Origin: Campylobacterota bacterium
Lineage (GTDB): Bacteria > Campylobacterota > Campylobacteria > Campylobacterales > Sulfurovaceae
DNA: 64,000 nt
Direction: 5' to 3'
Assembly (NCBI GenBank): GCA_003252535.1
Contig: QKDN01000008.1
Location: forward strand, 1-64,000
Part shown: piece by piece, positions 1,407 to 15,843 of the stretch
How the letters are laid out: each line of letters starts with the position of its first letter
Numbering within the stretch: position 1 is the stretch's first letter
Notes under the pieces: generated by a model
Told to the model about the DNA's origin: nothing
Seen by the model: the letters and a program-made list of their open reading frames with translations, nothing else
Database searches by the model: none
Translations under genes and position numbers: made by a program

Positions 1407-3773
1407 ATGAAGAAGCTTATCATAGCAGCAGGACTGACACTCGGGACGCTCTGCGGGGCGGCGGATTTCCAGGCGGACTACTCGAAGGCGCTCTCGCTCT
1501 CGCTGGAGTTCTACGACGCGCAGGGTGCGGGTGCGAGAGGGGAGAGCTGGCGCAGGGTGGAGTGGCGCAACCCCTCCGTGCTCACCGACGGGCAGGATGT
1601 CGGCGCTGATCTGAGCGGCGGATGGTTCGATGCGGGGGATCATGTCAAGTTCTCCCTCCCGATGTCCTACAGTGCCTCGATGCTCGCATGGGGCTACCTC
1701 GAGTACAGGGACGGCTACAAGACCGCAGGCGAAGAGGAGTACTTCAGGAACAATCTCAAAGTCGCCCTCGACTACTTCCTCAGCAGCTACCGTGACAACG
1801 GCACGGCGGGCGTGAGCGACGACCGGATACACTACCAAGTAGGCGACGGCGGTGCCGACCATACCTTCTGGGGGCCGCCTGAGCTGATGACGATGGCGCG
1901 CCCGACATACACCTGCGACAAGGACAAGAGGTGTACCGAGGTCGCCGCAGGAGTAGCAGCAGCTCTCTCCTCGGGGGCGATGGTCTTCGCCGACAGCGAC
2001 GCGTCGTATTCGCAGACGCTCCTCTCCAAAGCGAAGAAGCTCTATGAGTTCGCCAAAACCTACCAGGGGAACAACGGCTACACCGCCGCATCGGGCTACT
2101 ACACCTCCTACAGTGGCTACAACGACGAGCTCTCATGGGCGGCGATCTGGCTCTACCGGGCGACGGGCGAGAGCGCCTACCTCGCCGATGCCAAGAGCTT
2201 CGTCGCCAAGGCGGGGAGCGCCATCTACTGGGCGCAGAACTGGGACAATGTCTCCAACGGCACCTACCTCCTCCTCGCCAAGAGCGGCGATACCGACGCA
2301 GCCGCCAAGATCAAGACCCACCTCGACTACTGGCTCACTGGTGTCAGCCGCACCCCTGCGGGTCTCGCGCACCTCAATGAATGGGGAAGCCTCCGCTACG
2401 CCTCGACGACCGCCTTCATCGCGTTCGTCTACAGCGACTGGGTGAGCGACGCGACGCAGAAGCTCACCTACCGTACCTTCGCCGCCGAGCAGATGAACTA
2501 TATCCTCGGCAACAACCCGCTGGGGCTCAGCTACCAGATCGGAACGGGGACGAAATACCCGATCAACCCGCACCACCGCGCCGCCCACTACTCGACGAGC
2601 AACAATATCAACTCCCCGACCAACAACACCTACCTCCTCAAGGGAGCGCTCGTAGGGGGGCCAAAGACAGCCAATGACTACGACTACAAGGACGACCGCA
2701 GCGACTATGTCCGCAACGAAGTGGCGACCGACTACAACGCCGCCTTCACCGGGGCGCTGGCGAAGATGACGCTGCTCAACCCCGCCTCGGCAGCTGTGGA
2801 GGTCAATACAAGCGTCGAGACCAATACGACCGAAGAGGCGGCGGAGAACCCTGTCGCCACCCTCGCGGTCGTGAGACAGAATACCGACGAGTGGGAAGGC
2901 GGCTACTGCCAGGAGGTGGCGATCCTCAACTCCACCTCACAGCCGCAGGTCTGGTCGATCGACCTTGGTGTCCCGGAGGATATCATCTCGAGCCACGATG
3001 TCAATATCACCGAAACGGGCGGGGCGAAGATCGCCGTGGGGCTTGAGTACAATGCCGCCGTGCCGCCGCAGGGGAAAGTGACCTTCGGCTTCTGTGCGGG
3101 TACGCCGCAGGAGACAGAGACGACCCAGACCCAGCCGCAGACCACCACGCAGCCCCAGACGACGGTGAGCACCGGTGGGCTGGAGGTGACCCGCACCCGC
3201 AGCTCCGACTGGAACGACGGCTACTGCGAGAATATCGATATCCTCAACACAAGCGACGCCAATATCGCCTGGCAGCTCACCCTCGAAGTGGAGGGGAGCA
3301 TCTACAATCTCTGGAACGCCTCCTACGCCCAGAGCGGCTCCACCCTCACCGCGAGCGGTCTGAGCTGGAACGCGCTCCTCTACCCGGACAAATCGGCCTC
3401 GTTCGGATTCTGCGCCAACAAATCCTCTGCGCCGATGGAGCAAAACGGCGAGCTCGCCATAAGCGTGGAGCAGATACTCGCGCAGGGTGTCGACATGGGG
3501 GACGCATCGGTGAGCAACGACGGCACGCTGGAGGTGAAGCGGATCACCCAGACTGACTGGGGGACGGGCTACTGCGAGGATGTCTATATCAGAAACATCT
3601 CGCAGGGGGATATCCTCTGGGAGGTGAGCTTCGCCTACGAGGGTGAGATATACACCCTCTGGAACGCCGACTACACCGCCGCCAACGGCCAGCTCACCGC
3701 CTCGGGCGTAGAGTGGAACGCCCTCATCACCCCGGGCAGCGAAGCGAGCTTCGGGTACTGCGCGAATCGGTAG
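1407..3773 (+). CDS. Secreted GH9 endoglucanase with three C-terminal CBM2-like modules
   Basis: A 788-residue glycoside hydrolase family 9 cellulase, expected to cut beta-1,4-glucan outside the cytoplasm. Residues 1-19 form a Sec signal peptide. The (alpha/alpha)6 catalytic domain spans about 22-455 and keeps the family's key residues: DAGDH (Asp75 and Asp78, which activate water), NPHHRAAH (His389-Arg391 region, substrate binding) and NEVATDYNAAF (Glu438, general acid). Three modules follow, at about 484-565, 592-675 and 708-788, separated by linkers, one of them Thr/Gln-rich. Modules two and three match CBM2 (a W at the start, NLWNA or TLWNA, and a closing SFGF or SFGY); module one is degenerate. 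Each carries a GYC...G(F/Y)C cysteine pair. DNA is clearly GC-rich relative to neighbours. GH9 plus CBM2 is typical of cellulose degraders and unexpected in a chemolithotrophic group, so transfer is likely. Its last 41 bases recur at 6545-6585. Confidence 0.93.
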   Translation: MKKLIIAAGLTLGTLCGAADFQADYSKALSLSLEFYDAQGAGARGESWRRVEWRNPSVLTDGQDVGADLSGGWFDAGDHVKFSLPMSYSASMLAWGYLEYRDGYKTAGEEEYFRNNLKVALDYFLSSYRDNGTAGVSDDRIHYQVGDGGADHTFWGPPELMTMARPTYTCDKDKRCTEVAAGVAAALSSGAMVFADSDASYSQTLLSKAKKLYEFAKTYQGNNGYTAASGYYTSYSGYNDELSWAAIWLYRATGESAYLADAKSFVAKAGSAIYWAQNWDNVSNGTYLLLAKSGDTDAAAKIKTHLDYWLTGVSRTPAGLAHLNEWGSLRYASTTAFIAFVYSDWVSDATQKLTYRTFAAEQMNYILGNNPLGLSYQIGTGTKYPINPHHRAAHYSTSNNINSPTNNTYLLKGALVGGPKTANDYDYKDDRSDYVRNEVATDYNAAFTGALAKMTLLNPASAAVEVNTSVETNTTEEAAENPVATLAVVRQNTDEWEGGYCQEVAILNSTSQPQVWSIDLGVPEDIISSHDVNITETGGAKIAVGLEYNAAVPPQGKVTFGFCAGTPQETETTQTQPQTTTQPQTTVSTGGLEVTRTRSSDWNDGYCENIDILNTSDANIAWQLTLEVEGSIYNLWNASYAQSGSTLTASGLSWNALLYPDKSASFGFCANKSSAPMEQNGELAISVEQILAQGVDMGDASVSNDGTLEVKRITQTDWGTGYCEDVYIRNISQGDILWEVSFAYEGEIYTLWNADYTAANGQLTASGVEWNALITPGSEASFGYCANR
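3733..3773 (+). repeat. Direct repeat, copy 1: 3' end of the GH9/CBM2 gene
   Basis: The last 13 codons of the cellulase gene, including its stop codon, match 6545-6585 at 37 of 41 positions with no gaps. The two copies bracket the outer-membrane protein gene and the BspA-like gene. Confidence 0.85.
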
Positions 3774-3830
3774 CAGGGTGATATTCCGGCATTTGTATAT
3801 GACCGGAAATCGTTCCCGTCTCGTGACATA

Positions 3831-3865
3831 GGATACGGGTAACATTCACTGCGTTACCCGTATCC
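3831..3865. terminator. Perfect 13-bp stem-loop downstream of the cellulase gene
   Basis: GGATACGGGTAAC (3831-3843) and GTTACCCGTATCC (3853-3865) pair perfectly around a 9-base loop. No run of T follows, so it is not a canonical intrinsic terminator, but it is the only strong hairpin between the cellulase stop and the next gene and may stop or protect transcripts. A weaker TTCCGG/CCGGAA pair (3784-3789, 3813-3818) lies just before it. Confidence 0.45.
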
Positions 3866-4047
3866 ATCTGGCCTCTTACCAAAACAGCGGCTGCACCATA
3901 CCCTGCATCCTGAAAATAATCCACACAAAATACATTATCATAAAGATTTATAATACAGCTTCATATATATTTGATAAGATTTAACCTGAAAAAACACAAT
4001 AGTTCGCTACTATGCTGCTTAAAAATTGTTCTCATAAAGGATTAATA

Positions 4048-4677
4048 ATGATGAAACATATATCAAATCATACGATAATGCTTTTTGCAGCATCGACTTC
4101 GCTGCTCATGGGCGGTGGCGACCTGGCTCCTGTCCCTGTCCCGGCAGTGCCTATCCCGGTCGTCGAAAAAACTCCTTTCTATATAGGTGTGGCTGCTTCA
4201 GATATGAGACTGCTGAACCAGGATACCGATGAGGAGTTCAGTGCGACGGGTATCACGCTGCAGGCAGGGTATATCTACAGTGAATACCTCTCGATAGAGC
4301 TTCGATACAGTCAGAATGCCGGCAGTGTCTCGTACGAGAACGGTATCACGACCACTGTGGCCGACACCGATGACTACTCCACAGACTTCGTCAATATGGG
4401 GATATATCTCAAACCTGCCTATAGCATCGACTCTCTCACGCTTTATGCACTGCTGGGGTACGGTGAGGTATCGCTCACCAATATCCCCGAGGGCGATACG
4501 GACAGGGGAGAAGACGGCTTCCAGTGGGGTGTAGGGCTCAGCTATGCGATAGATGAGAGCTGGAGCCTCTTCGCAGACTATATGTCGCTCTACAGCGGAG
4601 AGGGATTCGACCATCTGGCGATCAACAATGATAATGAAGCTACACTCGTCAGTGTAGGTATAAGCTATAGATTCTAG
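4048..4677 (+). CDS. Outer-membrane beta-barrel protein (OmpA-type 8-strand barrel)
   Basis: A 209-residue protein started at the ATG at 4048 because AAAGGA lies six bases upstream; a longer frame from 4012 has no ribosome site. It has a signal peptide, then GGGDLAPVPVP, the Pro-rich leader common in Campylobacterota outer-membrane proteins, then alternating aromatic/hydrophobic strands (FYIGVAASDM, ITLQAGYIY, YLSIELRYS, FVNMGIYLKPAY, LYALLGYGEV, QWGVGLSYAI, WSLFADYMSLY) ending in ISYRF. The C-terminal Phe is the usual BAM recognition signal. This fits a small eight-stranded barrel of the OMP_b-brl type; ligand unknown. It lies 13 bases before the BspA-like lipoprotein gene, and the pair sits inside the direct repeats made from the cellulase gene's 3' end. 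Confidence 0.8.
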   Translation: MMKHISNHTIMLFAASTSLLMGGGDLAPVPVPAVPIPVVEKTPFYIGVAASDMRLLNQDTDEEFSATGITLQAGYIYSEYLSIELRYSQNAGSVSYENGITTTVADTDDYSTDFVNMGIYLKPAYSIDSLTLYALLGYGEVSLTNIPEGDTDRGEDGFQWGVGLSYAIDESWSLFADYMSLYSGEGFDHLAINNDNEATLVSVGISYRF

Positions 4678-4690
4678 GAGGAGAGACCTG

Positions 4691-6544
4691 ATGGGAACAT
4701 TGACTACAAAACAACTGCCCGGCATGATGATGCTTTGCCTGCTGCTCCTGTTGAGCGGGTGTAAGGGGAACGGTGAGAGCGGTGTCGAGACGGCAGATGG
4801 ATACATGGGTACGGTACAGGCAGAGGGGAAGAATAGTGCAGTACCGGAAAGTCAGGAACCGACAGTAGAAAACAACAGTTCGGTACCTGAAACGACCGAT
4901 ACAACACCTGAAACTAACAATTCGGTACCTGAAACCAGCGATTCAATACCTGAAACGAACGATTCGATACCTTTGGTACCGGTGAACCATGCGCCGGAGG
5001 CAGTGGACTCCGATATCAGTCTTGATGAAGATACGGTAGCCAGTATCAAGCTCACGGGGCAGGATACAGACGGTGATACACTCACCTATGCCGTGACACA
5101 GCAGCCTGCCCATGGGACACTCTCCTGTACGGCAGATGCATGCACCTATACGCCCGATGCCGATTACTATGGCAGTGATACAGTGAAATTCATCGTGAAC
5201 GACGGAAAAACGGATAGTGCCGAAGCTACGGTCTCTATCACGGTCAACAGTGTCAACGATGCACCTGCTGCCGATGCGGGAGCCGACAAGATCGCATTGA
5301 GATCGGAGAGTTTCGATCTCAACGGCACCGGGACAGATATAGACGGGACGATCGTCAGCTATCTGTGGACACTCGATACCAATAGCTCTTTCAGCGCTGC
5401 GACCAAAGGGGTCAGCATCGGAGGACTCGGAGTGGGTATATATACCTTCACGCTCACTGTCATCGACAACGAGGGAGAAACTGCCACCGATACTATGACG
5501 GTCGAGGTCAAGTCCAAACCTTTCATCATCACTGTCAAGGTCACGGATGGTACCTTCGAGATCGGTACAAACAGTTTTTATCCCACCTACAACTATGATG
5601 TAGATTGTGACAACGACGGTACTATCGATGAGGTCGGGATCACAGGTCCCTATACCTGTAACTATACAGAACCCTACAACGGCAAGGTCGTCATCCATGA
5701 CAATGATGGGAATGATACAGGCTTCCCTGCACCTGCATTTGCGAACAACAGTGAACTTACCGGGGTCAACCAGTGGGGTGATATGCAGTGGCAGTCGATG
5801 AGCGATGCCTTCCGTGGCTGCAGCAAGCTCAATGATGACGGAGGGTGGGCGACGGATCTGCCGAACCTCACCTATGTCAAGAGTATGAACTCGATGTTCC
5901 AGGGTGCAGCTGAGTTCAACCAGAGCATCGGAGCGTGGGATACCGGCAGTGTGACCGATATGAGTTATATGTTCGAGAACGCTATCTCTTTCGACAGGGA
6001 TATCGGGAGCTGGGATACCAAAAATCTGACACGGGCTCTGGCAACATTCAAGGGAGCTGTAGCATTCAACCAGGATATCGGAGACTGGAATACCAGCAAG
6101 GTAAATGCTATGGCAAAAATGTTCATGGGAGCTACATCGTTCAACCAGGATATCGGAGGTTGGGATACCCACCTTGTGATGTGGATGTACAGTATGTTCG
6201 AGGGGGCTACGGCATTCGACCAGGATATAGGAGCCTGGGATGTAGGCACGGTAGTATGGATGTACAACATGTTCAAGGGGGCTACGGCATTCGACCAGGA
6301 TATAGGAGCCTGGAGACCCGGCAATGCAATGTGGATGGATGGTATGTTCGAGGGGGCTACATCGTTCAACCAGGATATCAGCGGATGGGATACACATAGT
6401 GCGGGTTGGATGGACAATATGTTCAAAAATGCCACATCGTTCAGCCAGGATCTAAGCGGCTGGAATGTCTCGAGTGTCGGCTGGCATAGCAATTTCAGCC
6501 TCAATTGGGGAGGTATCCCCGCATTCGAACCGATCTGGAATTAG
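4691..6544 (+). CDS. Surface lipoprotein with Ig-like domains and DUF285/BspA-type repeats
   Basis: A 617-residue protein with a lipoprotein signal peptide (LLSGC, Cys24), so likely anchored to the outer membrane. Residues 55-95 are a low-complexity tether of imperfect SVPETxD units. About 98-195 is a cadherin/VCBS-like Ig domain (APEAVDSDISLDEDT, then YTPDADYYGSDTVKFIVNDG), and about 196-275 is PKD-like. After a spacer with an Asp-rich, possibly calcium-binding stretch (DVDCDNDGTIDE), eight 25-residue repeats (402-601) follow the DUF285/BspA pattern MFxGAxxFNQDIGxWDTxxVxxM. Proteins of this family usually mediate adhesion to cells or polymers. Next to a CBM2-tipped cellulase, attachment to particles is plausible but unproven. 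The stop codon abuts the duplicated CBM2 tail exactly, and adjoining repeats are nearly identical at DNA level, so repeat number may vary between strains. Confidence 0.85.
   Translation: MGTLTTKQLPGMMMLCLLLLLSGCKGNGESGVETADGYMGTVQAEGKNSAVPESQEPTVENNSSVPETTDTTPETNNSVPETSDSIPETNDSIPLVPVNHAPEAVDSDISLDEDTVASIKLTGQDTDGDTLTYAVTQQPAHGTLSCTADACTYTPDADYYGSDTVKFIVNDGKTDSAEATVSITVNSVNDAPAADAGADKIALRSESFDLNGTGTDIDGTIVSYLWTLDTNSSFSAATKGVSIGGLGVGIYTFTLTVIDNEGETATDTMTVEVKSKPFIITVKVTDGTFEIGTNSFYPTYNYDVDCDNDGTIDEVGITGPYTCNYTEPYNGKVVIHDNDGNDTGFPAPAFANNSELTGVNQWGDMQWQSMSDAFRGCSKLNDDGGWATDLPNLTYVKSMNSMFQGAAEFNQSIGAWDTGSVTDMSYMFENAISFDRDIGSWDTKNLTRALATFKGAVAFNQDIGDWNTSKVNAMAKMFMGATSFNQDIGGWDTHLVMWMYSMFEGATAFDQDIGAWDVGTVVWMYNMFKGATAFDQDIGAWRPGNAMWMDGMFEGATSFNQDISGWDTHSAGWMDNMFKNATSFSQDLSGWNVSSVGWHSNFSLNWGGIPAFEPIWN
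5894..6493 (+). repeat. Eight tandem 75-bp repeats in the DUF285/BspA lipoprotein gene
   Basis: Period is 75 bases (25 codons), each unit opening with an MF or TF dipeptide. The units starting near 6194 and 6269 share a run of more than 35 identical bases, whereas earlier units have diverged, pointing to recent expansion toward the 3' end. Confidence 0.85.
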
Positions 6545-6585
6545 CGGGCAGAGAAGCGAGCTTCGGGTACTGTGCGAACAGGTAG
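6545..6585 (+). pseudogene. Remnant of a CBM2 3' end (direct repeat copy 2)
   Basis: These 41 bases match the cellulase gene's end (3733-3773) at 37 positions. Read in the original frame they give GREASFGYCANR then TAG, against GSEASFGYCANR in the intact gene. Within the codons, three of the four differences are silent (TGC/TGT, AAT/AAC, CGG/AGG) and one changes Ser to Arg. The remnant starts immediately after the stop codon of the BspA-like gene and lies in a different frame. It looks like the orphaned end of a CBM2-containing gene left behind after insertion or replacement. Confidence 0.8.
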
Positions 6586-6605
6586 GGTGACCGTATCCTG
6601 CTCTT

Positions 6606-6658
6606 GTCATACCGGACTCGATCCGGCATCCATGGTGTTCGGTACGGTTTCCCGTACC
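6606..6658. repeat. REP-like palindromes between the CBM2 remnant and metE
   Basis: GTCATACCGGA-CTCGA-TCCGG (6606-6626) resembles the GTCATxCC palindromes dispersed in many bacterial genomes; related GTCATCC elements occur here at 13116 and 36687. A 7-bp hairpin, GGTACGG/CCGTACC (6641-6658), follows. Either could lie at the shared 3' boundary of the two convergent transcription units. Confidence 0.5.
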
Positions 6659-6705
6659 TTCATGTGTGATAGTCCCGTATATCCCATGCCTGGTAGTGGA
6701 GTGAG

Positions 6706-8994
6706 TCAAGCACTTTTGGGAGCACTGGACCGTACTCTCCGGACTGCCTCGACCATATTATAGAGGCTTGGTTTCACCTCTTCCCATTTTCTTGTTTTCA
6801 AACCGCAATCAGGGTTGATCCACAACTGCTCTCTGGGTAAGACATCTAACAGAAGTTGTATCTGCTCGACCATCTCTTCGACACCTGGGATACGGGGAGA
6901 GTGGATATCATAGACTCCAGGTCCGATCTCTTGTCTGTAACCTGCTTGCCTGAATATCTTGAGGAGCTCATTACCGCTTCGAGCCGTCTCTATGGAGATC
7001 ACATCAGCATCCATCGCTTCGATCGTCCCGATGATATCATTGAATTGACTGTAGCACATATGGGTATGGATCTGCGTCTCTTTGAGCGCACTGCTTACAG
7101 CGATTTTGAAGTCCCTCACCGCCCATGACTCGTAGTGTTTGATCCTGGCAGTTCTGAGTGGGTATCCCTCTTTGAACGCCGCTTCATCGACCTGTATGAT
7201 CGAGATCCCGCTTTTTTGGAGATCATCGATCTCATCACACAGCGCTACGGCTATCTGTTTGGAGACCTCGTCTCTACCAAGATCATCCCGAACAAATGAC
7301 CAGTTGAGCATCGTCACCGGACCAGTGAGCATCCCTTTCATTGGTTTGGAGGTAAGACTTTGGGCATAAGTGATCCAGGCTGTGGTCATCGGCTGGGGTC
7401 TGCTGATATCACCATAGATAAACGGAGGCTTCACACATCTGCTTCCATAGCTTTGTACCCATCCGTTGCTGCTGAAACCATATCCTCTCAGCTGTTCGCC
7501 AAAATACTCTACCATATCGTTCCGCTCAGGCTCTCCATGGACGAGAATATCAAGGCCACACTCCTCCTGGAAAGAGACACACTCATCGATATACTCCCTC
7601 ATCCTCTCTTCATACTGCCCTCTCTCAATGAGCCCTTTTTTGTACTCCTCTCTGGCTTTTCTCACCTGTGGCGTTTGCGGGAAGGAGCCTATCGTCGTGG
7701 TGGCAAGCTCAGGATATCCCAGATGCTCTTTCTGGAGAGCTATTCGCTCCTCATAGACTCCGTCCCGAGTGAATTTCGTCAGACCTTTCACCCGCTCCTG
7801 TACCCTGAGATCGTGAATGATCGGAGAGTTTTTTCTGCTTTGATTGGATTCTTTGATCGATTGCAGGAGCTTTTGATCCTTGCTCTTGAGTGATTCCTCT
7901 CCATCGTAGAATATCCTGGCAATGAGAGATACTTCATCGAGCTTCTCCACTGCATAGCTCAGCCATGATCTGATCTCCTCATCCATCTTTTCCTCATAAT
8001 CGAGGGTGAATGGAGTATGGAGCAGAGAGCATGAGGTAGAGAGCGTGATACGCTCTTTTGGTATCTCTCTGGCAAGAACATCAAGCAGTGCGAGGGTTGT
8101 GGTGATATCGTTTCTCCAGATATTGCGACCATCGACGACTCCTGCGATGAGCTGCTTGTCGCTCCCGGCAATGAGTGGGAGCGTATCAAGATTCTCTCTT
8201 CCATGCACCAGGTCCAGTCCAACTCCCCAGATCGGGGTATTCAGGAGAATCTTCGTCGCTTCATTGGAGTGCTCAAAATAGGTTGTGACAATGAGCTTGA
8301 GATTTGATGCACAGGATGCAAGACGATCATATGTCGGTTTGATCAGACTCAGTACTTTCGGCTCCAGGTCGGTGACAAATATCGGCTCATCTATTTGCAG
8401 CGTGATATCCTCATCAAGGGCAGAGAGCAGCACAAGCAGCTCCTCGTAGAGCGGGAGGATTCTGGAGTGGAGCTCATAGCACTCACCCCGGTCGACTCTT
8501 TTGGAGAGACCGAGGAAGGTGATGGGGCCGATGAGATTGATCTTGGTATTGATACCGTGGGCTTTCGCCTCCCGGTACTCTTCGATGATCTTGGCCGCAT
8601 TGAGCGTATAGTGGTCCTCGTTACTGAGTTCAGGGACGATATAGTGGTAGTTGGTATTGAACCACTTGGTCATCTCCATCGCTACTGCTTCATCTGTACC
8701 CCGTGCCATTGCAAAATAGCGCTCCTCATCGTGAAGATGACGAAAGCGGGCAGGGATCGCTCCCAGCATCACCGCCGTATCGAGCATATTGTCATAGAGC
8801 GAGAAGTCATTGGACGAGATACAATCGATCGACGCATTCACCTGGTAGTCCCAGTGGCGTTTGCGTAGACTCCTGGCTACCGATTGGAGCTCTTCCAAAC
8901 TACTGCTGCCGCTCCAGTAGCTCTCCAGCGCTCTCTTGAGTTCTCTTTGTTCTCCGATTCTCGGGAATCCTACAATATAGCTTTTTTTTGACAT
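6706..8994 (-). CDS. metE: Cobalamin-independent methionine synthase
   Basis: A 762-residue MetE, full length for the family (E. coli about 753). It transfers a methyl group from 5-methyltetrahydropteroyl-triglutamate to homocysteine in the cytoplasm, the last step of methionine synthesis. The N-terminal half carries the folate-domain start VGFPRIGEQRELKRALE; the C-terminal barrel has the zinc ligands His645, Cys647 (HTHMC), Glu669 and Cys730 (NPDCGLKTRKW), with the same spacing as in E. coli. The start ATG at 8994 lies behind AAGGATACAACC. The gene stands alone, convergent with the surface-protein region, and nothing around it suggests a riboswitch. Very safe assignment. Confidence 0.97.
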   Translation of the reverse strand: MSKKSYIVGFPRIGEQRELKRALESYWSGSSSLEELQSVARSLRKRHWDYQVNASIDCISSNDFSLYDNMLDTAVMLGAIPARFRHLHDEERYFAMARGTDEAVAMEMTKWFNTNYHYIVPELSNEDHYTLNAAKIIEEYREAKAHGINTKINLIGPITFLGLSKRVDRGECYELHSRILPLYEELLVLLSALDEDITLQIDEPIFVTDLEPKVLSLIKPTYDRLASCASNLKLIVTTYFEHSNEATKILLNTPIWGVGLDLVHGRENLDTLPLIAGSDKQLIAGVVDGRNIWRNDITTTLALLDVLAREIPKERITLSTSCSLLHTPFTLDYEEKMDEEIRSWLSYAVEKLDEVSLIARIFYDGEESLKSKDQKLLQSIKESNQSRKNSPIIHDLRVQERVKGLTKFTRDGVYEERIALQKEHLGYPELATTTIGSFPQTPQVRKAREEYKKGLIERGQYEERMREYIDECVSFQEECGLDILVHGEPERNDMVEYFGEQLRGYGFSSNGWVQSYGSRCVKPPFIYGDISRPQPMTTAWITYAQSLTSKPMKGMLTGPVTMLNWSFVRDDLGRDEVSKQIAVALCDEIDDLQKSGISIIQVDEAAFKEGYPLRTARIKHYESWAVRDFKIAVSSALKETQIHTHMCYSQFNDIIGTIEAMDADVISIETARSGNELLKIFRQAGYRQEIGPGVYDIHSPRIPGVEEMVEQIQLLLDVLPREQLWINPDCGLKTRKWEEVKPSLYNMVEAVRRVRSSAPKSA

Positions 8995-10404: not shown

Positions 10405-12012
10405 CTACAACTCACACTTCAAGATCGAATCCACGATCCCCCGTGCGATCTGTTCCGTCCCTACGATGATCTCGTAGCGGGGGAATTCGCGGTGGAGGAG
10501 GGCGCGCTCCTGGAACTTGCTCACCGTGATGATCACCTTGGTCTCGGGGGCGATCTGGGTGAGGGCGTTGCAGACGAGGTGGATGTGGTCGTTGTTGTCC
10601 ATCGCGACGACGACGGCTGTCGCGGAGTGGACGTGGACCGATTCGAGGATGCTGCTCTGGGCGGCATTACCGAGGATCACCTTTTTGCCCAGCCCCCTGG
10701 CGCGGAGGACGCTTTCGTTGTTGTGCTCGATGGCGATGTGGGGGATGCTACGCGATTCGAGCTTGTCACAAATCTTCTGTCCGAGTCTGCCGTAGCCGAG
10801 CACGACGATGTGGTCTTCGAGGTCTCTTTTGGGGAAGGAGGCGGCCATGACGGCGAGTTTTTCATTGCCGAAGAAGAGATCGACGATATCGGTGAGCCTG
10901 CGCAGGACGAATGGGGTGAGCACCATCGAGACGATGATGACACTGATGAGTATCTGCGAGAGCTCGGTCGCGATGAGGTCGGCATTGCGTGCGAGCTCGA
11001 AGACCACGAGCCCGAACTCCCCGAGCTGGAAGAGGCTCAGCGCGCTCTTGAGGGCGACCCTTTTGGCGGTGGCGCGCTTGAGGAGGAGGTAGATGACGGT
11101 GACCTTGATGAGGGCGAAGAGGGCGACGAGACCGAGGATGAGGGGGAGATTGTCACCGACGATACGCAGGTCGATCTGCATCCCTACCGTGACGAAGAAG
11201 AGCCCCAACAGCAGGTCGCGGAAAGGGATGAGGTCGGCCTCCACCTGGTGCTTGTAGTGGGTCTCGGCGATGATCATCCCCGCGATGAAGGCGCCCAGCG
11301 AATAGGAGAAGCTCAGCGAGTGTGCCAGCAGCGACGCCCCCATCACCAAAAAGAGGATCGAGCCGATGAATATCTCGTTGGAGTTGCTCCGCAGCACGCG
11401 TGAGAGGAAAGGGTCGAGGACATAGAGCCCGAAAGCCCACAGCGCGGCGAAGAGGACGATCGCTTCGGCGAGTGTCTTGAGGAGCAGCGGCGCGATATGG
11501 ACATCACTCGCGGAGAATATCCCGATCATCAATAGGATGGGGATCACCATGATATCCTGGAAGATCAGGATGCCCAGCGCCCTGCGCCCGAACTCCTCGC
11601 CGATCTTACGGCTGGCGGTGAGGAGCTTGAGGACGATGGCGGTCGAGGAGAGGGCGAGCGCGCTGGCGATCACGAGCGAGGGCTTGTTGGGGATATCGGC
11701 AGCGAAGCGGGCGAGGAGGAAGAATATCGCCATGCTGATCCCCACCTGCAACCCGCCGTAGAAGAATATCTCTTTGCGCATCAGCTTGAGGTGCTTGATG
11801 GAGAACTCCAGCCCGATGGTGAACATCAGAAATACGATCCCGAACTCCGCGATGAGCTCGAGGTCATGCGACTTGCTGCTGTGCAGACCGAAGAGATAGG
11901 AGAGGACGAGCCCCGTAACGATATACCCGATGATGGTGGGGATGTGGTATCTGGTGAAGATGATATTGAAGAGTGTGGCGATAAAGATACCCGCTACGAT
12001 GATCTCAAGCAT
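10405..12012 (-). CDS. Monovalent cation:proton antiporter (CPA2/KefB type) with RCK domain
   Basis: A 535-residue inner-membrane protein. Residues 1-375 hold about a dozen hydrophobic segments of the Na+/H+ exchanger fold, including GLVLSYLFGL, the acidic ion-site segment FGIVFLMFTIGLEFS and FQDIMVIPILL, all typical of the CPA2 (Kef/YbaL) family. Residues 395-510 are a TrkA-N Rossmann domain starting HIVVLGYGRLGQKIC, which usually binds NAD(H), AMP or glutathione conjugates and gates flux. The likely role is potassium or sodium efflux coupled to proton entry for pH or electrophile stress. GC content is high. The UDG-like gene follows closely. Length is between those of YbaL and KefB; the Kef-specific ancillary protein gene (kefF/kefG) is absent nearby, so I give no symbol. 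Confidence 0.88.
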   Translation of the reverse strand: MLEIIVAGIFIATLFNIIFTRYHIPTIIGYIVTGLVLSYLFGLHSSKSHDLELIAEFGIVFLMFTIGLEFSIKHLKLMRKEIFFYGGLQVGISMAIFFLLARFAADIPNKPSLVIASALALSSTAIVLKLLTASRKIGEEFGRRALGILIFQDIMVIPILLMIGIFSASDVHIAPLLLKTLAEAIVLFAALWAFGLYVLDPFLSRVLRSNSNEIFIGSILFLVMGASLLAHSLSFSYSLGAFIAGMIIAETHYKHQVEADLIPFRDLLLGLFFVTVGMQIDLRIVGDNLPLILGLVALFALIKVTVIYLLLKRATAKRVALKSALSLFQLGEFGLVVFELARNADLIATELSQILISVIIVSMVLTPFVLRRLTDIVDLFFGNEKLAVMAASFPKRDLEDHIVVLGYGRLGQKICDKLESRSIPHIAIEHNNESVLRARGLGKKVILGNAAQSSILESVHVHSATAVVVAMDNNDHIHLVCNALTQIAPETKVIITVSKFQERALLHREFPRYEIIVGTEQIARGIVDSILKCEL

Positions 12013-13247: not shown

Positions 13248-13294
13248 ACTTCAGCCCCCCCCCGAAAAAGTGAAGCTGAAGCTTTCGGTTCCTA

Positions 13295-13357
13295 TCTATC
13301 GCCAGTAAGTCACCCCGTCCTTGATGATATAGCTCTGCGACATATTGATCGAGTGGT
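13295..13357 (-). pseudogene. Duplicated 3' end of lnt (direct repeat copy 1)
   Basis: These 63 bases match 14273-14335 at 60 positions, at a constant offset of 978. On the minus strand they encode the final Lnt residues HSINMSQSYIIKDGVTYWR and a TAG stop, the same peptide as the intact gene; the in-frame differences are synonymous (GTG for GTA, CGA for AGG). Homology stops sharply at both sides. The remnant has no start and lies just beyond the PIN toxin gene. It is the displaced or donor-borne end of lnt. Confidence 0.88.
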
Positions 13358-13400
13358 CGAAGGCACTCTGAGGAAAAGTGTTCTGGATAATTGAAAAGTA

Positions 13401-13877
13401 TTACATGATCTCCGATAGTTTTGCGAAAAACAGCTCTTCAAGCGCTTTGGATATCCTAAGACCGTTTTGTTTGAAGAGACTGAAACAGTAGCGGCACTCT
13501 TCGGCAGAGATGCAGTTCTGCCTGTAGTTCTCTATCAGTATACCCAGGATACCGACTACCTTGACCCCCTGGCTCTGGGCAATTTTCCTCCCTTTCCTCT
13601 CATCGATGATCAATGGCAGGTCGAGCTCAAGAGCCAGTGTGATCGCTTCGGTCTCGCCGATATCGAGTTTGAAGTCGGGTATTTTGTTCGTTACTGGTCT
13701 GACCACGATCTGTTCGAACCGCTCGATCCTGTACCGGACAATATCATCTTTGAAATAGAGTTCGTCTTTGACAGCCTGGGGGATAAAGACCTTTTCAAAG
13801 AGATTTGAAAGCAGTCTGAGCTGATCGGCTTTGGCGAAAACGATAAGTGCGGTTGTATCGCTGATGACTATATTCAT
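13401..13877 (-). CDS. PIN-domain toxin (DUF3368 family)
   Basis: A 158-residue PIN-domain protein, probably an Mg2+-dependent ribonuclease toxin. It starts with the family signature VISDTTALIVFAK (Asp7) and keeps further acidic positions at DIGETEAITLAL and LPLIIDERKGRKIA, the pattern expected for a PIN active site. DUF3368 proteins are regularly encoded after a UPF0175 protein, as here, where the partner ends 8 bases upstream. The pair is read leftward, in the same direction as lnt, and sits between two copies of the lnt 3' end, so it appears to be an inserted cassette. RNA target unknown. Confidence 0.85.
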   Translation of the reverse strand: MNIVISDTTALIVFAKADQLRLLSNLFEKVFIPQAVKDELYFKDDIVRYRIERFEQIVVRPVTNKIPDFKLDIGETEAITLALELDLPLIIDERKGRKIAQSQGVKVVGILGILIENYRQNCISAEECRYCFSLFKQNGLRISKALEELFFAKLSEIM

Positions 13878-13885
13878 ACGGTATT

Positions 13886-14188
13886 TCAGCTAAAAGCGTT
13901 AAACTCTTGCTGCATGTACTCTTCATCCGCTTCCACATAAGGGATGTCATACTTCTCCAGAAGATCCATCACCTCAAGCTTTGTCAGATCGAGGATAGTG
14001 GCGACTTGACCCAATGAGAGTTCACCGTGACTGTATGCCTTCAGAAGATTGTATTCGTAGGTCTCGATCTTTGTCTGTCTGGTGAAGAGACCTTTGATCA
14101 TTTCGATAAATTTATCTTTATCGTTATGGAACTGCGTCTCGATCAAAGTAGTTATAAAAGGATCTCGTATCTGTATACTGGTCATCAT
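13886..14188 (-). CDS. UPF0175-family antitoxin
   Basis: A 100-residue protein of the UPF0175 type, the usual partner of DUF3368 PIN toxins. The C-terminal half contains a helix-turn-helix (SLGQVATILDLTKLEVMDLLEKYDIPYVEADEEYM), so it probably binds its own promoter and neutralises the toxin. A ribosome site (AGAGGAAAG) precedes the tandem ATG codons at 14188, and a TATAAT at 14222-14217 (minus strand) lies in the 80 bases that separate it from the lnt stop, giving the cassette its own promoter. The following toxin gene is 8 bases away, consistent with translational coupling. Confidence 0.83.
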   Translation of the reverse strand: MMTSIQIRDPFITTLIETQFHNDKDKFIEMIKGLFTRQTKIETYEYNLLKAYSHGELSLGQVATILDLTKLEVMDLLEKYDIPYVEADEEYMQQEFNAFS

Positions 14189-14272
14189 CTTTCCTCTAAC
14201 TATAAAATCTGTCTCATTATATCAAATTGCGGGAGATTTGCAAATACGCATTTATCCTGCCCGCACATGCGA

Positions 14273-14335
14273 TCTACCTCCAGTAAGTTACCCCGTCCTT
14301 GATGATATAGCTCTGCGACATATTGATCGAGTGGT
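14273..14335 (-). repeat. Direct repeat copy 2: functional 3' end of lnt
   Basis: The intact gene's last 20 codons plus one base past the stop; 60 of 63 bases match 13295-13357. Together the copies flank the toxin-antitoxin cassette. Confidence 0.88.
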
Positions 14336-15554
14336 AGATGGTGGTGCCGTAGAGGCGGTTGTAGTAGAGGAGGAGGAGACGCTGCTGGGTCGGCTCGATG
14401 GAGGGGGTGAACCAGCCGTTGTTGCTGATGGCGATGAGGTTGGCAGGTCTGTCCTCGTAGAATACTCCGCTCGTCGCCTCATAGCAGATGGCGCTGCGGT
14501 ACCGGGTGCCGTCGATATCGAAATCGGTGAACCCGGAGCTCGCCTGGTAGTCCACCGCGCCGTCGAAGAAGATGTCGTTGACGATATCGCTGAGCCAGTC
14601 GGGGAGGGGGTTGCGCTCGCCGAAGGGGACGAGTACCACCTTGTCGGCGATGGTGACCTGCCCGTTCTCGAAAAGGTAGGCGGAGTTGTAGGGGATACCC
14701 TGTGACTCTTTGAGCGCGCCGATGACGACGGTGATATGATGGGAGAGCTCTTTGAAGCGTGTGAGCATCATCTCGTCACGGTTGAGGAAATCGGTGATGA
14801 TAGACTCGGGGAAGATCACGATCCTCTTGCCGTTTGCGATCGATCTCTCGATCTGCTCGAAAGCCGCTTCGTATGTAGGGATGAGATTGACCGGTTCCCA
14901 TTTCACATCGATTGGTGTGTAAGTGGTGACGATGTCGATATCGTCAGCGGGCGGAGTGGATGGGGCAGGGGGGAGCTCGACGGCCAGGAGGAGGGCAAGC
15001 AGCCAGAGCTTCCTGCGTGTCACTATGGCCAGCGAGATGGAGAGGAGGACGAGGGTGAACTGCCATTTCGCCACCCCGACAAAGCTCTGGATGAAAACAA
15101 GCTCGGGCTTGAACCAGTCGAAGCCGAGAGGATGGAGGTAGCTTGCCGTGACCAGGAAGATGGCCTTGATCCATACGGCGTTCAGGGAACTCCTCTCCTC
15201 CAGCCGTCTGCCGAGATAGGCAGGGCCGTAGAATATCGCACCGTAAATTATGGATATGATAACGACGCCTATAGGCAGGGCCCATCCGAAACCGTACTTC
15301 TCAAAGCTCAGCGGTATCCACCAGAACCACATCGCTGCGATGAAGGTACCGCTCCAGAACCAGTCGCGCTCCGGGGCCCGCAGAAGGAGGAAAAAGAAGA
15401 GGATTCCGGCAAGGGTATTGAATGGTAACAGGGTGATATCAAGCCATGCGCTATAGAGGTACAGGGAACCCGAAAGGGCGATCAAAAAGCCTCTTGTTAT
15501 CGAGAAAGTGGTATGATACCCGTCTATTAATTTTCTAATCAAAAGGAACCTCAT
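14274..15554 (-). CDS. lnt: Apolipoprotein N-acyltransferase
   Basis: Transfers an acyl chain from phospholipid to the N-terminal cysteine of lipoproteins in the inner membrane, the last step of lipoprotein maturation. Counting from the ATG at 15554 (426 residues), about 190 residues of hydrophobic helices precede a periplasmic nitrilase domain with the catalytic triad Glu250 (IVIFPESI), Lys305 (IADKVVLVPFGE) and Cys357 (SAICYEATSG). It is shorter than the E. coli enzyme, normal for Campylobacterota. The start is uncertain: this ATG overlaps the yajC start on the other strand, and a TTG at 15542 is also possible. The C-terminal transmembrane helix of longer homologues is absent, so the protein ends at the duplicated tail IIKDGVTYWR. 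Confidence 0.9.
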   Translation of the reverse strand: MRFLLIRKLIDGYHTTFSITRGFLIALSGSLYLYSAWLDITLLPFNTLAGILFFFLLLRAPERDWFWSGTFIAAMWFWWIPLSFEKYGFGWALPIGVVIISIIYGAIFYGPAYLGRRLEERSSLNAVWIKAIFLVTASYLHPLGFDWFKPELVFIQSFVGVAKWQFTLVLLSISLAIVTRRKLWLLALLLAVELPPAPSTPPADDIDIVTTYTPIDVKWEPVNLIPTYEAAFEQIERSIANGKRIVIFPESIITDFLNRDEMMLTRFKELSHHITVVIGALKESQGIPYNSAYLFENGQVTIADKVVLVPFGERNPLPDWLSDIVNDIFFDGAVDYQASSGFTDFDIDGTRYRSAICYEATSGVFYEDRPANLIAISNNGWFTPSIEPTQQRLLLLYYNRLYGTTIYHSINMSQSYIIKDGVTYWR

Positions 15555-15843
15555 GGAAGCCGGACAAGGTAGTGCATTCGCGCAACTCATCCCACTAATT
15601 TTGCTTTTTGCAATCTTTTATTTCTTGATCATCAGACCTCAGAACAACGAGAGAAAAAGACACCGAGAGATGCTCGATGCCCTTAAAAAAGGTGATGAGA
15701 TCGTCACTTCCGGCGGGCTCTATGCAGAGATCGTCAAAGTAGAAGAGGAGTTTATCAAAATCAAACTAAATGATAGCTCTATCGTGAAGCTCGACAAGAA
15801 CTTTGTCGCCAGAAAGATCGAGTTCAGTAATGAAGCGGCTTAA
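15553..15843 (+). CDS. yajC: Preprotein translocase accessory subunit YajC
   Basis: A 96-residue single-span membrane protein. Residues 9-27 form the helix [19 protein letters not shown] ending in the family's RPQ motif, followed by the conserved cytoplasmic part [26 protein letters not shown]. YajC associates with SecDF and SecYEG. AAAAGGA lies five bases before the ATG. It heads the rightward yajC-secD-secF-DUF6394 operon and its end overlaps the secD start by 14 bases. The promoter must lie within the 5' part of lnt on the opposite strand. Confidence 0.95.

Follow-up and report, generated by a model that had tools for sequence, protein, structure and literature searches.

A duplicated cellulase 3' end beside a surface-protein gene pair, and similar duplicated gene edges elsewhere in the same genome

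Introduction

Bacterial genomes commonly contain small gene sets that carry no transposase or integrase, and the route by which these entered is usually obscure. The locus described here raises this question in a concrete form: why does the very end of a cellulase gene, stop codon included, stand a second time directly behind a lipoprotein gene further downstream? An earlier note on this DNA offered two answers: the second copy could be the original end of the cellulase gene displaced by an insertion, or it could be what is left of a deleted paralogue with CBM2 modules. We compared the window (the whole stretch of DNA that was analysed, 64,000 bases long, i.e., bases 1-64000 of contig C39 in our numbering of the genome) with other parts of the same genome and with relatives.

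Gene content of the cellulase locus

The features of the locus, in the order of their positions in the window, are as follows.

1407-3773, plus strand: cellulase, GH9 followed by three CBM2 modules, the intact gene whose edge is repeated (Pfam Glyco_hydro_9, 1e-131; CBM_2, 2e-37, three stretches)
3733-3773, plus strand: first edge copy, the final 41 bases of the cellulase gene including the stop (37/41 to 6545-6585)
3774-3874, plus strand: region after the cellulase stop, with a strong hairpin (GGATACGGGTAAC/GTTACCCGTATCC; fold z = -5) and a collinear likeness to 6586-6696
4051-4677, plus strand: first gene of the putative insert, outer-membrane beta-barrel protein (Pfam OMP_b-brl, PF13505, 5e-21)
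4691-6544, plus strand: second gene of the putative insert, lipoprotein with Big_9, PKD and DUF285 (PARCEL) repeats of 75 bp (profile matches)
6545-6585, plus strand: second edge copy, probably the displaced cellulase 3' end, abutting the lipoprotein stop (repeat match)
6586-6696, plus strand: region after the stop of this remnant, with a dispersed palindrome at 6605-6630 and a likeness to 3774-3874
6706-8994, minus strand: metE, the convergent neighbour beyond the scar (Pfam Meth_synt_1, Meth_synt_2)

The gene identities proposed in the earlier note, namely a GH9/CBM2 cellulase, an outer-membrane barrel, a DUF285 lipoprotein and metE, are borne out. The cellulase has a changed domain order, with GH9 first and CBM2 at the C-terminus; in the GH9 relatives inspected CBM2 is N-terminal, and none of them has it at the C-terminus. 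The lipoprotein ends in EPIWN-stop, and since this resembles the EPxWND or EPxW ends of the DUF285 lipoproteins of relatives, the protein appears to be complete but for about one residue.

The barrel and lipoprotein genes occur as a pair at two more places in the genome, on contigs C16 and C12, where the barrel paralogues are 77% and 71% identical, respectively, to the one in the window. No host-gene repeats were found around these two pairs, which means that the barrel and lipoprotein genes also arrive or duplicate in other ways. Lipoproteins with a Big_9-type N-terminal part and a C-terminal domain ending in VRCVRxG are present at three further loci (contigs C16, C32 and C11), and each of them directly precedes a small gene made of the same VRCVRxG-type C-terminal domain. 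None of the nine congeners has metE, and the nearest match in the relatives searched (72%) belongs to another family, so the gene may itself have been acquired.

Two copies of the cellulase 3' end

The cellulase gene's terminal 41 bases (3733-3773) match positions 6545-6585 at 37 of 41 bases without a gap, with E = 4e-9 when the whole genome (2.92 Mb in 77 contigs) is searched. This confirms the recurrence reported in the earlier note. The duplicated end is real and well above chance, and the search of the whole genome returned no third copy of it. The remnant was also said to abut the stop of the BspA-like lipoprotein gene, and its first base is indeed the one that follows the TAG at 6542-6544. 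It is in frame and ends with the same stop codon as the cellulase gene: the remnant reads (A)GREASFGYCANR-stop and the cellulase end (P)GSEASFGYCANR-stop (AGREASFGYCANR-stop and PGSEASFGYCANR-stop, respectively). That most codon differences are silent also holds, three of the four (TGC/TGT, AAT/AAC, CGG/AGG) being so and the remaining one exchanging S and R. Among the three CBM2 modules the remnant is nearest to the end of the third (29/33 bases, against 21/30 for module one and 19/33 for module two), and no similarity to the cellulase gene was found 5' of position 6545.

A widespread CBM2-coding repeat, found at many places with no link to insertions, had been named in the earlier note as the observation that would speak against its reading. 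It was looked for and is rejected: the sequence is present at only two places in its own genome and at none in the nine congeners, and an exact 26-base pattern has no match in the contigs of the GTDB genome collection. Viral contigs gave no match either. A weak extra match in contig C70 lies outside any CBM2 gene and is at chance level.

Sequences downstream of the two stop codons

The similarity of the two copies continues beyond both stop codons, where it is collinear over approximately 100 bp (70 of 90 aligned bases identical, with 12 gap runs). By dinucleotide shuffles its probability ranges from 0.001 to 0.02 according to the length and method used. Over 100-120 bp, none of 83 real post-stop regions of the same genome matches the region after the cellulase gene as well as the region after the remnant does, and the latter was the only match above the score cut-off among the loci of the genome that were scanned. 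As proof of duplication, a common downstream terminator loses weight because a dispersed palindrome (6605-6630), with about ten relatives across the genome, lies in the region after the remnant, and because the two regions fold differently. The similarity past the stops counts as support for a duplication, short of proof. A scan of the region for promoters and terminators gave nothing exceeding shuffles.

The palindrome has the form CATnCC(G/C)GAC..GATC(C/G)GGnATC, is present in about ten copies and is also found on contig C2 at approximately 16.5-17.5 kb, where a gene pair resembling REP-associated transposases lies amid many-copy short repeats.

A second case at lnt

A blind scan of gene ends led to a second case in the window, 8 kb from the cellulase scar. 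Here the 3'-terminal 70 bases of lnt (14272-14341) have a second copy at 13294-13363, with 93% identity. The features of this case are listed below.

14274-15590, minus strand: lnt, apolipoprotein N-acyltransferase, the host gene (TIGR00546, 157 bits, above the cut-off)
14272-14341, minus strand: first edge copy, the lnt 3' end with its stop (93% over 70 bases to 13294-13363)
13886-14188, minus strand: UPF0175 protein of the putative insert, antitoxin-like (Pfam UPF0175, 8e-11)
13401-13877, minus strand: PIN-domain protein of the putative insert, toxin-like (Pfam PF20698, 2e-7; a weak DUF3368 match, 0.011)
13294-13363, minus strand: second edge copy, probably the displaced lnt 3' end, with a core that reads HSINMSQSYIIKDGVTYWR-stop

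The core of the second copy encodes a protein end identical to that of lnt, all differences within it being silent. The UPF0175 and PIN genes together look like a toxin-antitoxin-like pair. Genomes normally have a single copy of lnt, which makes a deleted paralogue an unlikely origin of this repeat.

Frequency of bracketed inserts in the genome and in relatives

The gene-end scan took the last 41 bases of every open reading frame of at least 120 amino acids and searched for them within 12 kb, in the window and in other stretches of the genome, and it was repeated on 515 kb with 449 open reading frames, gene starts and gene middles serving as controls. These scans, like the self-comparison described below, took in sampled stretches of the 2.92 Mb. 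Among the 449 ends in 515 kb, only that of lnt (38/41) equals that of the cellulase gene for a same-strand match within 12 kb; the next best (33/41, contig C16) stems from two neighbouring genes that share a C-terminal domain, and the rest reach at most 27/41.

The self-comparison was directed at unique direct repeats of 35-400 bp that are at least 80% identical, lie 0.3-6 kb apart and do not fall in the same open reading frame. It gave five clean cases in 460 kb and no clean one in a further 383 kb, i.e., five in 843 kb. In these five, inserts of 0.6-2.8 kb stand between unique direct repeats of 41-178 bp, with no third copies, which are 87-99% identical. Besides the cellulase and lnt cases they are the following.

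Contig C49, 126503-126657 and 127275-127428: 155-bp repeat, 90% identical, around one gene of 190 amino acids with no assigned function
Contig C49, 101619-101696 and 103135-103212: 78-bp repeat, 98.7% identical, around addiction-module and PIN genes
Contig C16, 77403-77580 and 79124-79300: 178-bp repeat, 87% identical, around a gene of 389 amino acids with no Pfam match

The 78-bp repeat takes in the start of a von Willebrand-type gene, and the 178-bp repeat consists of the promoter region and the first 68 coding bases of an aldo/keto reductase gene. Taken together, the repeats of the five cases lie at two gene 3' ends, at two gene starts and at one intergenic position, and the target sequence differs each time. 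No integrase, transposase or other recombinase family was recognised in any of the five inserts, two of the inserted proteins having no Pfam match. Several other repeats were rejected as cases: tandem or many-copy repeats on contigs C49 (27 kb), C2 (16 kb) and C54, a pair on C49 (90036/92181) that represents paralogous leader sequences, and a repeat on C38 that resembles a duplication of prophage tail genes.

Candidates of the same kind are present in relatives. Two candidate bracketed inserts were found in 400 kb of genome G031 (contig C1, 213026-214776 and 360028-364487) and one in 321 kb of genome G009 (contig C68, 22115-24021), with repeats of 142, 85 and 63 bp around an ATPase-like gene, a two-component histidine kinase pair and small genes with no assigned function. 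In small control samples, 400 kb of G043, a genome of the same order as the host, gave no clear case, and 50 kb of E. coli gave none. Given two such scars 8 kb apart, the genome seems to gain small gene sets repeatedly, with no visible transposase or integrase.

Divergence of the edge copies

In the coding parts of three cases, 7 of 12 differences between the copies are silent. If both copies were free to drift, a silent fraction of 0.20 would be expected (P = 0.004); under a fairer null, in which the intact gene is constrained and the remnant drifts, 0.33 is expected (P = 0.06; P falls to 0.02 once two differences at the very margin of the lnt repeat are disregarded). The silent excess is borderline against the fairer null and not decisive. 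It leans towards the copies being alleles of two strains, each of which would have been a real gene end before they met. In the C16 case the displaced copy reads RVSPICMGTM, as do the aldo/keto reductases of congeners, and the intact gene reads RVSLICMGTM; the displaced copy thus shares with the orthologues of congeners a proline in place of which the intact gene has leucine.

Gene order in relatives

The gene order around either of the window cases, cellulase or lnt, is kept in no relative examined. A comparison of synteny revealed no uninterrupted cellulase-metE junction in them, and with gene order unconserved no empty site was found in them beside metE or beside the antiporter gene at 10405-12012. 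The genome has one other CBM2 gene, in which these modules are N-terminal. When 175 genomes of the family were searched, CBM2 matches were obtained in 21.

Alternative explanations

Of the two options in the earlier note, the displaced original end is favoured because the same structure recurs 8 kb away at lnt and, within the 843 kb compared, at three other places; for the deleted paralogue the searches brought no support. According to the latter option, a second gene ending in CBM2 once lay between the lipoprotein gene and metE, and a deletion fused the lipoprotein end to its last 13 codons. An in-frame remnant with mostly silent differences and diverged downstream DNA is what old tandem paralogues would be expected to leave, and the lipoprotein does seem to be short of about one residue and of its own stop region at the junction. 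However, there is no intact paralogue with C-terminal CBM2 in the genome and none was seen among the CBM2 matches in the 175 searched genomes of the family, the inspected architectures having CBM2 N-terminally, and a deletion of this kind leaves the lnt case and the other three unexplained. We consider it unlikely. A still less probable scenario is that the lipoprotein gene once ended in CBM2, that this end was exchanged for DUF285, and that the old 3' end was left behind the new stop, as in Rhs genes. The lipoproteins of the genome do share Big_9-type N-terminal parts while differing in their C-terminal domains (DUF285, VRCVRxG-type and others), and orphan 3' ends arise in this way in Rhs (PMC2935791) and type VI effector loci (PMC5361080), but no lipoprotein with a CBM2 C-terminus was found in this genome or in those of the family, the similarity past the stop points to the 3' region of the cellulase gene itself, and the lnt case involves no such modular protein.

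Attachment sites of integrative elements are often gene 3' ends with recoded synonymous copies, and two of the five repeats are of this description. Elements that used such sites, with integrases lost or acting in trans, are nevertheless a very improbable source of the five cases, given that the target sequence is different in each, that the remaining three repeats are found at gene starts (two) and between genes (one), and that no recombinase family was recognised in any insert, though two inserted proteins have no Pfam match. As to chance or an assembly artefact, the genome is indeed an assembly of 77 contigs, but the E value of 4e-9 speaks against chance, a 41-bp repeat whose copies have diverged does not confuse assemblers in the way that identical copies would, and the same structure is seen in several contigs and in other genomes; we give this explanation hardly any credence.

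Probable insertion with duplication of the host gene edge

The remnant is best explained as the 3' edge of the cellulase gene, duplicated and displaced when the barrel and lipoprotein segment was inserted, the same having happened at lnt and at three other sampled places; we put the probability of this reading at about 0.6. The import, the single crossover and the direction of the event, i.e., which copy is older, we infer, the direction because no relative with an uninterrupted junction was found. By the most likely route, DNA of a related strain would have been taken up by natural transformation, carrying the cargo together with 40-180 bp of a diverged host gene edge. A single crossover inside this edge would then have integrated a recircularised fragment; alternatively, homologous recombination on one side may have been combined with illegitimate joining at the other end. 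In either scenario the host gene would retain a complete edge and stay functional, and the second edge copy would land beyond the cargo. A ComEC homologue is encoded in the genome (PF03772, 2e-22), and the bacterium may be naturally competent.

Several observations count against insertion. The copies of the barrel and lipoprotein pair on C16 and C12 have no bracketing repeat of a host gene. That the lipoprotein gene has lost its stop region at the junction would be a coincidence that the model does not require. Five cases were found in 460 kb, yet no clean one in a further 383 kb.

It is possible, although we would not count on it, that in this Campylobacterota family a recombinase-free route repeatedly adds small cargo, such as toxin-antitoxin-like pairs and surface-protein genes, at gene edges, and that the two diverged, readable edge copies of each event record the import from another strain. 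If so, the edge copies would let such import events be dated and counted genome by genome. Short diverged duplications of host edges would be a readable trace of entry, open to automated searches. Provided that the edges are imported alleles, a homology of 40-180 bp at an ordinary gene edge suffices for gene import into a competent bacterium, and new genes enter without damage to the gene that is hit.

Comparison with known systems

The lipoprotein belongs with the PARCEL (DUF285) surface lipoproteins (NCBIfam TIGR02167, NF045896), with which it shares the 75-bp repeats coding for DUF285 units. It is an ordinary member of this group and is cargo, not cause.

In the displacement of rhs C-termini and at type VI effector loci (PMC2935791, PMC5361080), an incoming module leaves the orphan 3' end of the old gene downstream, much as here. 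In those systems the host gene gains an unrelated C-terminus, whereas the orphan end described here equals the current end of the cellulase gene.

Homology-facilitated illegitimate recombination and the integration of shortened circles share with the present cases that one short homologous anchor suffices. In an E. coli experiment a single crossover with shortened circles duplicated 109-950 bp of a gene end (PMC3240628), and the repeats found here (41-178 bp) are shorter than those. Classical homology-facilitated illegitimate recombination has homology on one side and little or no microhomology at the other junction, and it usually deletes recipient DNA. Here a one-sided junction is visible at 6540-6546, but recipient DNA seems to be duplicated.

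Insertion with long target duplication was described for restriction-modification genes of Helicobacter pylori (Nobusato et al. 2000, as relayed in PMC1643837 and PMC3154945). In both situations a small gene unit stands between direct repeats of host DNA with no transposase, and the repeat lengths found here (41, 70, 155, 78 and 178 bp) agree with such insertions. H. pylori, a competent bacterium, is likewise a member of Campylobacterota, and the cargo is of a selfish type in two of the five cases. The cargo here consists of toxin-antitoxin-like, surface-protein or unassigned genes and not of restriction-modification genes, which are the usual association there and no part of a definition. In contrast to the Helicobacter case, the copies have diverged (87-99% identity), often silently, and no empty site was found in the relatives examined. 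A single event of this sort is known in kind; new here are its recurrence, its toxin-antitoxin-like and surface-protein cargo, and the diverged edges.
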